31,664 bases of DNA from a virus: positions 1 through 31,664 of the IMG/VR virus record IMGVR_UViG_3300021438_000053; one strand, written 5' to 3'. Below the pieces are notes generated by a model that worked only from the letters and a program-made list of their open reading frames with translations, had not been told where the DNA came from and did not search any database. Of the stretch, positions 4,535 to 8,013 are shown in pieces. Numbering within the stretch: the first letter of the stretch is position 1; each line of letters opens with the position of its first letter. Position numbers and translations under genes: made by a program.

Positions 4535-4567
4535 CCATAATTGAATTACATTGAAAGCGAGGGAAAA

Positions 4568-5071
4568 ATGAAGGAAATAAAAAGTAATAATACAGCAACT
4601 GGCGAGCAAGGCGCAGCATCCGCAACTGGCGAGCAAGGCGCAGCATCCGCAACTGGCGAGCAAGGCGCAGCATCCGCAACTGGTTACCAAGGCGCAGCAT
4701 CCGCAACTGGTTACCAAGGCGCAGCATCCGCAACTGGTTACCAAGGCACGGCATCCGCAACTGGATACCGAGGCGCGGCATCCGCAACTGGCGACCGAGG
4801 CGCGGCATCCGCAACTGGATACCAAGGCGCGGCATCCGCAACTGGATACCAAGGCGCGGCATCCGCAACTGGCATGGCATCTATTGCTGTCTCAACTGGG
4901 CAATATGGCTGCGCACAGGCCGCCGAAGGATGTGCAATCTGTCTTGTTTATCGGGGCAAAGACGGCAACATCTTGCATATACGCTCAAGCAAGGTCGGCG
5001 ATAACGGAATTAAGGCCAATCACTGGTATACCTTGGGAGCAGATGGCGAATTTATTGAGAATGGAATCTAG
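4568..5071 (+). CDS. Nonapeptide-repeat protein with a C-terminal DUF7666-like domain
   Basis: The 167-residue product starts MKEIKSNNT and then has ten tandem copies of a nine-residue unit ATGxxGAAS (xx = EQ, YQ, YR or DR), residues about 10-99. One degenerate unit (ATGMASIAV) and a globular tail follow: GCAQAAEGCAICLVYRGKDG, then IKANHWYTLGADGEF. The tail matches the domain I know from phage and actinobacterial repeat proteins (DUF7666). Short Gly/Ala/Ser repeats of this kind stack as a beta-solenoid. The ribosome-binding site GCGAGGGA lies just before the ATG at 4568. The gene is the whole content of a 599-bp segment bounded by 64-bp direct repeats, so it looks like an inserted cassette. 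The 27-bp DNA repeats are likely to vary in number. Confidence 0.7.
   Translation: MKEIKSNNTATGEQGAASATGEQGAASATGEQGAASATGYQGAASATGYQGAASATGYQGTASATGYRGAASATGDRGAASATGYQGAASATGYQGAASATGMASIAVSTGQYGCAQAAEGCAICLVYRGKDGNILHIRSSKVGDNGIKANHWYTLGADGEFIENGI
4595..4864 (+). repeat. Ten 27-bp tandem repeats inside the CDS
   Basis: The unit begins GCAACTGG and ends GGCGCAGCATCC; each copy encodes ATG, two variable residues, then GAAS. Copies 1-3 are identical, 4-5 are identical, and 9-10 are identical, which points to recent slippage or unequal exchange. A minus-strand reading of the same repeats is a shadow. Confidence 0.95.
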
Positions 5072-5497: not shown

Positions 5498-5760
5498 CCG
5501 AAATCACCCTGTTCGGCAGCACCTTTGTGCTGGTCTTTGCCCTAGGCCTGCAATCACTAAATGTCAACAACCGACATTTTATCGCGGCGGCGTTTACTAG
5601 CTTTTTCATTGGCGGCGGGCAATTGGTCTTATTCAAACTCGCCCCGAACGCCAGCACCAGCGAGTGCGCGGCGTTTTTGCTCGGTGGGCCATTCGGCATA
5701 ACGGCGAGCATGTGGGCGTACCCACGGTTGGTGCGGATTTTGAAACGAGGGGAAAAATGA
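5494..5760 (+). CDS. Small inner-membrane protein, three predicted helices
   Basis: 88 residues with three hydrophobic segments: about 7-22 (FGSTFVLVFALGLQ), 31-52 (FIAAAFTSFFIGGGQLVLFK) and 63-78 (AAFLLGGPFGITASMW). A basic end follows (RLVRILKRGEK). The pattern (GLQ.LNVN.....AA..TS..IG..Q..L, then LLGGP.GI..SM) is one I recall from phage accessory operons next to methyltransferase genes. Start overlaps the previous stop (ATGA); stop overlaps the methyltransferase start (AAATGA). Exclusion of other phages or anchoring of a complex are possible roles, but nothing in the sequence decides. Confidence 0.6.
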   Translation: MTEITLFGSTFVLVFALGLQSLNVNNRHFIAAAFTSFFIGGGQLVLFKLAPNASTSECAAFLLGGPFGITASMWAYPRLVRILKRGEK

Positions 5761-6509
5761 ATGAGCTGGATATTCAGCGCAGCGATGATTCAGGCTTACG
5801 AGAACTCGCATTGTTCGCAGGCGCGGGCGGAGGAATCCTTGGGGGGACATTGCTCGGCTGGCGAACCGTATGCGCAGTTGAACGTGATGGCTACGCCGCA
5901 CAAGTTTTGGCACAACGACAAAACGATGGAATTCTCTCGCCTTTCCCAATTTGGTCTGACGTGTGCAATTTTGACGGAAGGCCATGGAGAGGAATTGTTG
6001 ATGTCATTTCGGGCGGCTTTCCCTGCCAGGACATTAGTGTCGCAGGTAAAGGAGCTGGAATTACAGGGGCGCGCAGCGGACTCTGGAAAGAAATGGCAAG
6101 GATTATTGGCGAAGTTCGACCCCGTTACGTATTCGTGGAAAACAGCCCAAGGCTCACTTCTCGCGGACTTGGAACAGTCCTTGGAGACTTGGCCTCGCTC
6201 AGGTTCGATGCGGAATGGGGAGTGTTATCAGCAGCCGATGTTGGCGCGCCGCATCTCAGAGAGCGAATCTGGATTCTTGCCAAACAACGAGACATTTTTT
6301 CACACTCCGAACACCACGGGGATGGATGGCGGAAGCAACAGCAGGAAGGCGTTGAAAAAAAGAACGTTACAATTCCCAACCCCAACCGCACACAATGCCA
6401 AAGAACACAACAGCCCGAGCGAATCCACCAGGAATGCTCCGACATTGGCAACTCATGCTGGTGGAATTCTGAACCCGATGTGGGTAGAAGGTTTAATGGG
6501 GTGGCCTAA
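5757..6509 (+). CDS. dcm: DNA (cytosine-5) methyltransferase, truncated: motifs I-VIII only
   Basis: The 250-residue product has, in order: motif I, the SAM-binding loop ELALFAGAGGGILGG (about 16-30); motif IV with the catalytic cysteine in ISGGFPCQDIS (Cys90); motif VI as ENS (128-130, usually ENV); and motif VIII GAPHLRERIWILA (163-175). It then runs into the variable target-recognition region and stops at FNGVA. The missing end (SRVDRLKAIGNGQVP, motifs IX-X) is encoded 454 bp downstream, beyond an HNH-gene insertion. Joining GTGGCC at 6501-6506 to TCTAGG at 6961 restores one frame exactly. Motif X completes the SAM pocket, so the fragment alone is probably inactive unless the two parts assemble, as in natural two-subunit enzymes such as M.AquI. 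The start overlaps the upstream stop. It may protect phage DNA from restriction. Confidence 0.85.
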   Translation: MNELDIQRSDDSGLRELALFAGAGGGILGGTLLGWRTVCAVERDGYAAQVLAQRQNDGILSPFPIWSDVCNFDGRPWRGIVDVISGGFPCQDISVAGKGAGITGARSGLWKEMARIIGEVRPRYVFVENSPRLTSRGLGTVLGDLASLRFDAEWGVLSAADVGAPHLRERIWILAKQRDIFSHSEHHGDGWRKQQQEGVEKKNVTIPNPNRTQCQRTQQPERIHQECSDIGNSCWWNSEPDVGRRFNGVA

Positions 6510-6528
6510 AGATTGGACTTGCTTGAAT

Positions 6529-6566
6529 CCCATTAGTCATGTATGGTATCTGCCATGGCTAATGGG
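6529..6566 (+). promoter_or_regulatory. Hairpin covering the HNH ribosome-binding site
   Basis: CCCATTAG (6529-6536) pairs perfectly with CTAATGGG (6559-6566), and inside it CATG (6538-6541) pairs with CATG (6554-6557). The GGG at the end of the 3' arm is part of the GGGAGGA ribosome-binding site (6564-6570) of the HNH gene. The folded RNA should limit its translation. Similar sequestering hairpins are known for T4 homing nucleases. Confidence 0.7.
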
Positions 6567-6574
6567 AGGAACAA

Positions 6575-6946
6575 ATGATAAAGAAACAAGAGCAAGAGAA
6601 GCAATGCGAATATTGCGGATCGGTCATGTTGCGGAAGAGGTATCAGGGTCGATTGGAAGACTTGTCAGCATTCCAGAGGCGGCGATTTTGCTCTCTGAGT
6701 TGTGCGAACATGCGAACCGACCTAACGAAGCACGGATATTCATGGCGTGCGAGGAAGCACTTGAAGAAGAAATGCGAGGCGTGCGGATACAGCAGGGCAT
6801 TGCAAGCACATCATCAGGATCAAAACATCAAGAACAACGAGAAGGAGAACATTCAGACGCTCTGCAAGCACTGTCACGACTTCTGGCATACTACGGCCAA
6901 GAGGCTTGGAAAGATGGTAGCTGGGAGAATGGCATCCCTCGTGTAG
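6575..6946 (+). CDS. HNH endonuclease, homing type
   Basis: 123 residues. The N-terminal half has a zinc site CEYC (11-14) with CSLSC (39-43). The C-terminal half is an HNH core: CEAC (67-70), ALQAHHQDQN (His79/His80), ENIQTLCKHCHDFWH (Asn92, Cys97, Cys100, His101). It would cut intron- or insertion-less target DNA and promote spread of the element. The start has GGGAGGA four bases upstream, partly hidden in a hairpin. It sits within the methyltransferase gene and is the only gene of the 454-bp insertion. The enzyme is much shorter than IscB-type proteins and has no RuvC part. Nuclease family assignment is firm; homing behaviour is inferred from its position. Confidence 0.85.
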   Translation: MIKKQEQEKQCEYCGSVMLRKRYQGRLEDLSAFQRRRFCSLSCANMRTDLTKHGYSWRARKHLKKKCEACGYSRALQAHHQDQNIKNNEKENIQTLCKHCHDFWHTTAKRLGKMVAGRMASLV

Positions 6947-6952
6947 CAACCA

Positions 6953-7065
6953 GGGTGGCCTCTAGGGTGGACAGACTTAAAGCCATTGGAAACGGACAAG
7001 TTCCTCTCGTGGCAGCAACTGCATTCAAATTATTGCTCAGAAGGATAAAGCAAAATGAACATTAA
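6953..7065 (+). pseudogene. Detached C-terminal end of the cytosine methyltransferase
   Basis: The frame GVASRVDRLKAIGNGQVPLV, then AATAFKLLLRR, is the classical motif IX-X region of a C5 methyltransferase. It is separated from its N-terminal part by the 454-bp HNH insertion and is in a different frame (shift of one). There is no good start codon with a ribosome-binding site. Expression would need splicing, a frameshift, or an unrecognised start such as GTG at 6943. The stop overlaps the next gene. Confidence 0.8.
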
Positions 7066-7270
7066 CGACGACCCACTCGCAGTATGGGGCGAAGGCGCAC
7101 TCACTGCGGTACGCGCAATGTCACGCAAGGAGCTGGAAGTTCGGTTGCTAGATGCTTGGGAAGCCCTCGAACGGCTCGAAGAATCTGTGGATATGGCAGA
7201 CACAGAATTAACTGAAATGCGCACCAGAATGGTTCTGGTGAGCGAATGCGCGAAGCCCAGCTCCAACTAG
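7055..7270 (+). CDS. Small acidic helical phage protein
   Basis: 71 residues: MNINDDPLAVWGEGALTAVR, then MSRKELEVRLLDAWEALERL and a coiled-coil-like ESVDMADTELTEMRTRM. The opening (DPLAVWGEGALTAVRAM) is one I recall in small uncharacterised phage ORFs. AAGGATAAAG precedes the ATG, which overlaps the methyltransferase stop. Its last ~8 codons overlap the integrase remnant in another frame. The C terminus may therefore be chimeric, made when a recombination event joined this gene to the end of an integrase gene. Confidence 0.6.
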   Translation: MNINDDPLAVWGEGALTAVRAMSRKELEVRLLDAWEALERLEESVDMADTELTEMRTRMVLVSECAKPSSN

Positions 7271-7344
7271 GCCACACAGGCATGGCGATGACGGAACACT
7301 ACGTCCGCGCCCGACAAGGTCAAAAGACCACCCCAACGCGGTGA
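7246..7344 (+). pseudogene. int: 3' remnant of a tyrosine-recombinase integrase
   Basis: This frame reads REAQLQLGHTGMAMTEHYV, then RARQGQKTTPTR and stop. LGHT...MTEHYV is box II of tyrosine recombinases, with the conserved LGH and the catalytic tyrosine in HYV. The charged tail ending in TPTR is a common integrase C terminus. The same frame is closed by a stop at 7213-7215, so only about 33 codons remain and the Arg-Lys-His-Arg catalytic core is absent. It lies directly upstream of the probable attP, which is the normal place for an integrase 3' end. Confidence 0.75.
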
Positions 7345-7410
7345 GAATTTTACGAATTGCGGACTGAAATCAGAATTGCGGACTGAGACAAACACACAAA
7401 CGCCCCGCTA

Positions 7411-7419
7411 TGCTAGAAT
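7411..7419 (+). promoter_or_regulatory. Extended -10 promoter of a tRNA gene
   Basis: TGCTAGAAT (TG-N-TAGAAT) lies 10 bases before the first base of the tRNA-Ser 5' half. This is the style of tRNA promoters in Betaproteobacteria. The -35 region is not clear. Its presence means that the phage carries host-like sequence upstream of the tRNA as well. Confidence 0.5.
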
Positions 7420-7429
7420 CCACGCCCTC

Positions 7430-7468
7430 GGAGAGGTGGCAGAGTGGTCGAATGTACTTGACTCGAAA
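7430..7468 (+). pseudogene. 5' half of tRNA-Ser(CGA), probable att core
   Basis: Sequence matches tRNA-Ser from the first base: acceptor strand GGAGAGG, TG, the D arm GGCAGAGTGGTCGAA, anticodon stem strand CTTGA and the loop CTCGAAA with anticodon CGA (7464-7466). Directly after the loop the match ends: CCTCC stands where TCAAG is needed. No variable arm, T arm or 3' acceptor strand follows. It is therefore not a working tRNA gene in this form. Confidence 0.8.
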
Positions 7469-7643
7469 CCTCCCCCGCCTTTGGCTTGCTCAAGCCGCCC
7501 AGTTCAAAATTCCAGTCCGCAAAATGAAAAAAACGCACCACGTCCAGATGCGGGTCTCGCTGCATTTTGCGGACTGGAACGCTTGCCGTTCGTCCTGAAA
7601 AATCTACCGTTCGTCGGCTAGTTGAAAAAAGTTTAAAAATCGC

Positions 7644-7671
7644 TTTACTTTAGGCGCAACGCGCCTATAAT
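7644..7671 (+). promoter_or_regulatory. Promoter with a perfect 17-bp palindromic operator
   Basis: TTTACT (7644-7649) and a perfect TATAAT (7666-7671) are 16 bases apart. The spacer is almost filled by TAGGCGCAACGCGCCTA (7651-7667), two perfect 7-bp arms around AAC, which runs into the -10 box. A dimeric repressor bound there would block the promoter. The regulator is not identified; it is unlike the 14-bp CI/Cro operators. It serves the genes at 7730-8587. Confidence 0.75.
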
Positions 7672-7729
7672 AAAAACCGTCGGCACAACGCAGATACCGC
7701 GCCTCGGGAACAGGGGCTGGAGAAATAAA

Positions 7730-7969
7730 ATGAAAAACCAAAACTTCAACTTCGTAGCAGCGGAACTTGTAAAAAGTGCTCCAACTCAAAAAGCGGTAGA
7801 CTTTGCGAACAAAGTCATCGGTCAAATCGAAGCTCGCGGAGACGATTGGATCGAAGCCAATATTGAGGAACTCGGCTTAAAATTCTTCCGCATAGACTGC
7901 GACACCGTTGCACCAGTTTCTGATAATAGAATTTTCTGGATAACAAAATTTCAGGTTGCTCTTTATTAA
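7730..7969 (+). CDS. 79-residue protein of unknown function, first gene behind the palindrome promoter
   Basis: Begins MKNQNFNFVAAELVKSAPTQ, is mainly helical to about residue 50 (KAVDFANKVIGQIEARGDDW, IEANIEELGLKF), then ends in strand-like FRIDCDTVAP and RIFWITKFQVALY. GGAGA lies seven bases before the ATG. No cysteine cluster, signal or membrane segment. It is AT-richer than the following two genes. The tightly controlled promoter suggests a product that is harmful or needed only briefly. I do not recognise a family. Confidence 0.65.
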   Translation: MKNQNFNFVAAELVKSAPTQKAVDFANKVIGQIEARGDDWIEANIEELGLKFFRIDCDTVAPVSDNRIFWITKFQVALY

Positions 7970-7977
7970 AAAATAAC

Positions 7978-7996
7978 GCCTGGTCGCAAACCAGGC
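7978..7996. terminator. Intergenic hairpin, leftward terminator-like
   Basis: GCCTGGT and ACCAGGC form a perfect 7-bp stem with a 5-base loop. On the minus strand it is followed by GTTATTTTTTT, a weak terminator tail. On the plus strand there is no T run, so rightward transcripts should pass. It could shield the end of the 7730 gene's message. Confidence 0.45.
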
Positions 7997-8013
7997 ACTT
8001 CTAGGAGATCGCC

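Follow-up and report, generated by a model that had tools for sequence, protein, structure and literature searches.

Islands integrated into tRNA genes mostly hold the 3' part of their target: among 3919 tRNA islands mapped in Islander, 3760 carry a 3' fragment and 159 a 5' fragment of the tRNA gene (tDNA) (PMC4383910). The 5'-half case is described, in a review on archaeal recombinases, for pTN3-like integrases of Thermococcales (citing Cossu 2017), and is given there as seldom seen in bacteria (citing Williams 2002) (PMC8371274). The DNA analysed here (hereafter the window) is the whole IMG/VR record IMGVR_UViG_3300021438_000053, of 31,664 bp and without end repeats. It is a new case of this rare, already recorded arrangement. 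Positions 7246-7579 are very probably the phage attachment site (attP) of a temperate or formerly temperate siphophage, which was served by a tyrosine integrase of a family acting at the anticodon loop, is built on the 5' half of tRNA-Ser(CGA), and has had its own integrase deleted down to the last 32 codons.

Like the window, the 5'-fragment islands of Islander have the 5' part of the tRNA on the element, and the host 5' fragment is displaced; they are, however, integrated and an integrase is required, whereas the window holds an unintegrated attP with a deleted integrase (PMC4383910). In the pTN3-like case, the rebuilt tRNA is expressed from element DNA, as proposed for the window. Those elements are archaeal, their integrase gene is split by integration and its promoter drives the tRNA, while the window is a bacterial element with attP downstream of the integrase gene (PMC8371274). 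Deletion has removed the integration functions from the temperate phage line of mycobacteriophage TM4; in contrast to the window, which keeps attP, TM4 lost the site along with the integrase (PMC3203893). A family of siphophage integrases represented by loci L003 and L160 (PF00589, phrog_1; Pseudomonas and Mannheimia phages) has anticodon-loop targets, TTGCGGA arms and, over the 32 codons left, integrase sequence in common with the window but, unlike it, mostly a tRNA 3' half and an intact integrase.

The features of the locus are as follows.

7055..7270, + strand: 71-codon open reading frame (ORF) from the ORF list, entering the integrase stump in another frame
7246..7344, + strand: C-terminal stump of the integrase (32 codons, then TGA), including the catalytic LGH and Y region
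7357..7366, + strand: arm site 1, TTGCGGACTG, part of the tRNA-side compact pair
7376..7385, + strand: arm site 2, TTGCGGACTG, compact pair, direct, 19 bp from site 1
7409..7419, + strand: weakly supported candidate for an extended -10, TATGCTAGAAT, ahead of the tRNA half
7430..7468, + strand: tRNA-Ser(CGA) 5' half, 39 nucleotides, from base 1 to the end of the anticodon loop
7462..7468, + strand: anticodon loop CTCGAAA, presumed 7-bp overlap (crossover) region
7510..7526, - strand: proximal arm of the wide inverted pair, containing CAGTCCGCAA at 7513-7522; 17-bp perfect inverted repeat
7563..7579, + strand: distal arm of the wide inverted pair, containing TTGCGGACTG at 7567-7576; 17-bp perfect inverted repeat

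All the parts named in an earlier note on this DNA (an integrase stump, two direct TTGCGGACTG sites, a tRNA-Ser(CGA) 5' half and a 17-bp inverted pair) were thus located at 7246-7579. The tRNA half (7430-7468) is identical at 39/39 positions to the start of the complete tRNA-Ser(CGA) gene of viral contig L004, which has a host flank, and to that of the complete genes of two genomes among the matches listed for 399 genomes sampled from the order of Paracidovorax. Identity with the host genes ends at the anticodon loop: the 39-nucleotide half stops at CTCGAAA (7462-7468), presumed to be the crossover region by analogy with the prophage of genome G179 (see below). The tRNA-Ser 3' half was not found within the window, and attP comprises the 5' part alone. 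When this 5' half was joined in silico to a host 3' half, ARAGORN called a tRNA-Ser(CGA). Upon integration, the phage 5' half would join the host 3' half and the tRNA would be remade at one prophage end; the opposite end would keep the host promoter and 5' half as a displaced fragment.

The sequence TTGCGGACTG occurs four times in the 31,664 bp, at 7357, 7376 and 7567 on the + strand and at 7513-7522 on the - strand, all inside 220 bp, where about 0.07 copies would be expected by chance in the window. A scan for the spaced arm pair led to L003, in which the same two sites, at the same 19-bp spacing, directly follow a full-length tyrosine integrase gene and precede tRNA-Leu(TAA). L005 displays the same arm sequence and a related integrase (49-53% identical). 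Searching viral contigs with an alignment of both integrases delivered 80 loci. The family corresponds to PF00589/phrog_1 and includes integrases of Pseudomonas and Mannheimia phages. In most of the readable loci, the integrase is followed downstream by a tRNA fragment that stops at the anticodon loop, or by a complete tRNA if the contig extends into the host. When genome_contigs was scanned for the same arm-pair pattern, 77 loci came up, almost all of them chance matches or simple repeats; the sole clear relative was L041 (Pseudomonas sediminis), with arms beside tRNA-Leu(TAA).

A single layout was found in 18/18 attP sites, i.e. all those where two or more arm sites could be read on both sides of the fragment: a compact pair on the tRNA-fragment side and a wide inverted pair on the other. 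The compact pair is direct (18-21 bp apart) or palindromic (7-10 bp), and the sites of the wide pair are mostly separated by 51-64 bp, the proximal one pointing to the core. Extra motif matches occur on the wide-pair side of L095, L108, L150 and G179. As these sequences were already known when the arm motif was defined, this result is a description and not a blind test. The window array, written >15 >34 for the compact pair and <172 >225 for the wide inverted pair, has a layout equal to that of the 17 other family sites, and its arm sites have the TTGCGGA core. From these sequence comparisons, stump, arm sites and layout are assigned to an integrase family recombining in the tRNA anticodon loop.

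Seven of the 18 sites carry a reversed 3' half (L099, L107, L110, L144, L155, L169, L171), five a forward 3' half (L095, L104, L164, L170, L172) and six a 5' part (L108, L149, L150, L160, G179 and the window). The 3' half is the commonest form in the family. The 5' half in L149, L150 and L160 is that of tRNA-Arg(TCT); L108 (the same as L005) has the 5' part of a tRNA. Relatives with the same arms and lacking the tRNA half did not occur: those with TTGCGGACTG arms keep a tRNA or a fragment of one, from other tRNAs and in both polarities.

The stump extends from the ATG at 7246 to the TGA at 7342-7344 (sequence MREAQLQLGHTGMAMTEHYVRARQGQKTTPTR), that is 32 codons plus stop where about 33 had been announced. 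It is 72% identical over 32 amino acids to the integrases of L105 and L146 (E-values of 4.9e-10 to 3.5e-9). Pfam and PHROGs did not call the 32-residue stump, which was recognised only against full-length relatives, and no significant homology to family integrases was found in the rest of the window. Integrase homology starts at 7225-7246, the frame is open only from slightly upstream of 7246, and the break lies at about 7215-7245. No relative of the 71-codon ORF (7055..7270) was found in viral contigs. It appears that a full-length family integrase once stood beside the window attP, of which only the last 32 codons remain (matching the family at E 5e-10). Because the integrase is truncated, autonomous integration is unlikely, unless an intact copy is present elsewhere. 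The phage can probably no longer move alone, a loss of mobility deduced from one, probably incomplete, metagenomic contig. Since tRNA half and arm sites are unmutated, either the integrase was lost recently or the site is used in trans, and the window data fit both equally.

Integrated relatives were sought in the 399 genomes. The chromosome of G179 contains a family integrase (248642-249634, 64% to L160) and, from 250519, a complete tRNA-Arg(TCT) at the end of a 43.7-kb prophage, whose far end displays a perfect 43-nucleotide copy of the 5' half of this tRNA (206787-206829). The DNA upstream of the complete tRNA and of the displaced 5' half is unrelated, and palindromic arms flank the complete tRNA, while the inverted arms come after the displaced fragment. 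It follows from the unrelated upstream DNA and the arm positions at the two copies that the tRNA-Arg(TCT) of G179 is made of a prophage 5' half and a host 3' half, with the host 5' half displaced. L138 in IMG/VR is the same phage as this prophage. The integrated G179 relative supports that 5'-half attP sites are functional in the family. The proposal of a crossover in the loop and of a tRNA rebuilt from phage 5' and host 3' halves thereby gained support from homology, the relative in G179 being an integrated form with both the rebuilt tRNA and the displaced 5' fragment. The sequence parts, the family of the stump, the attP layout of the family and the integrated outcome were observed directly or in relatives; by analogy, the window attP probably once worked like the sites of these relatives, and the loss of its integrase is probably real. 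A prophage that gives the front half of a tRNA also gives the DNA driving it, and a host tRNA could in this way fall under the control of phage DNA.

When 38 integrases are placed on a maximum-likelihood tree, two changes of the 5'-half label are required, and the well-supported branches by themselves already impose two. L148, the sister of the clade with tRNA-Arg 5' halves (L149, L150, L160, L138), carries the 3' half of the same tRNA-Arg(TCT). The target of the window, tRNA-Ser(CGA), is used with its 3' half in L171 as well as in an element of G257 (L193/G257). What is new here is that, judging from the tree, polarity has flipped at least two times in one integrase family with unchanged arm geometry; the window would be a further change. 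A fixed arm layout with a flipping tRNA half was not met in the open-licence papers searched. In the simplest mechanism, the integrase would bind the inverted-repeat anticodon stem in either direction, and in an established lineage the direction would be set by the non-palindromic loop. How the polarity of integration is determined at a symmetric tRNA arm becomes a directly testable question, because the tRNA half has switched sides under a fixed arm layout and sisters use opposite halves of tRNA-Arg(TCT). A broader proposal is that a fixed asymmetric arm array is mounted on either tRNA half via the near-palindromic anticodon arm, with repeated flips of which the window is a further independent one, its attP still being integrated in trans by co-resident prophage integrases with TTGCGGACTG arms; taken as a whole, we consider this quite unlikely.

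Several points weigh against the window being a once functional 5'-half attP that lost its integrase. Neither an integrated copy of the window phage nor one of a close relative was found at tRNA-Ser(CGA), and its integration is proposed by homology alone. The stump is too short to fix its place within the integrase family or on the tree with any certainty. The consensus scan made no promoter call at TATGCTAGAAT (7409-7419), and a good -35 was not seen. Finally, end repeats are missing from the contig and the gene at its left end continues past the edge, so an intact integrase may sit in an unseen part of the genome.

In one unlikely alternative, the loss of the integrase would be an artefact of assembly or of the population, most genomes of the phage having an intact gene. 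The window is a single metagenomic contig and no close relative covers 7055-7344, as this alternative would allow; against it, the stump is in frame with a normal stop shortly before arm site 1, as in relatives, and is preceded by ordinary phage DNA with a methyltransferase and an HNH gene, like the DNA upstream of the integrase in Mannheimia phage 587AP2. It also appears rather improbable that attP is intact and still used, by means of an integrase borrowed from a co-resident prophage that shares the TTGCGGACTG arm specificity. Identical arm copies and a 39/39 intact tRNA half despite the missing integrase speak for such use, as do the full-length integrases beside the same arm sequence in L003 and L005; a recent deletion would nevertheless give the same picture, no co-resident prophage is known and no lysogen of the window phage was found.

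Prophages with a 5' half leave a displaced host 5' half at one end, which raises the idea that the tRNA half of the window is host DNA at a prophage end, beside the remnant of another element. Arm sites in the family layout and phage genes on both sides contradict a simple boundary, and just a tandem double prophage would fit, its inner junction being identical to attP; this explanation is very improbable. Group I introns typically interrupt tRNA genes at the anticodon loop, where the window half ends. An intron-containing or split tRNA gene is nonetheless hardly credible, as no tRNA-Ser 3' half was found in the window, its Rfam matches include no intron family, and the arm layout accounts for the sequence. 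The preferred reading remains that of a 5'-half attP with a deleted integrase.

The tRNA-type promoter announced in the earlier note is weakly supported: TATGCTAGAAT resembles an extended -10, accompanied by no good -35 and no call in the scan. It is plausible that phage DNA upstream of the half would drive the rebuilt tRNA. Another sequence, AACCCGCATGAATnCT, was rejected as source of the promoter-like sequence in the window, where its match is not above shuffled controls. As a separate observation, about 10 family attP sites (e.g. L149, L150, L110, L171, G179) have AACCCGCATGAATnCT close to the core, more than in shuffled controls; it is possibly a directionality or host factor site.

Two further arrangements were noticed at tRNA-Ser(CGA). 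L347 (G253:C23:22547 and 22692) has a complete tRNA-Ser(CGA) gene and, 145 bp ahead of it, a detached 5' half of this tRNA that has an upstream region of its own and might be the remnant expected of a collapsed 5'-half element. At L359 and L360 (G257:C1:1351489-1358335), about 6.7 kb separates two attachment sites of the family; both have arm sites and a tRNA 3' half, which suggests a small element or a tandem array.

The window comes from a siphophage. Its genes for terminase, HK97-type head and tail are directed leftward and occupy the stretch from 31 kb to about 9 kb. Small early genes lie in the left 8 kb, among them those for a C5 methyltransferase, an HNH endonuclease, a YdaS-like regulator and a short helix-turn-helix (HTH) protein; attP (7246-7579) lies between both groups. 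The single metagenomic contig is probably incomplete, as the left-end gene extends past its edge. No second integrase was found in it. No DNA match to 7000-8000 was found in the phages collection, and relatives sought via tail, terminase and flanking genes were not close across attP, so that no intact ancestral integrase of the window lineage was seen. C5 methyltransferase homology spreads over two overlapping frames (5664-6509 and 5761-7065), with the HNH endonuclease ORF at 6575-6946; the split methyltransferase (5664-7065) is either frameshifted or disrupted. The repressor-like HTH protein has just 55 codons, lacks a C-terminal domain and lies opposite the YdaS-like regulator (1638-1805 and 1274-1555), and the lysogeny switch may have decayed too. 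A protein of 176 amino acids (4541-5071) displays short repeats (ATGYQGAAS) and matches tail-fibre-like families despite its position among early genes.
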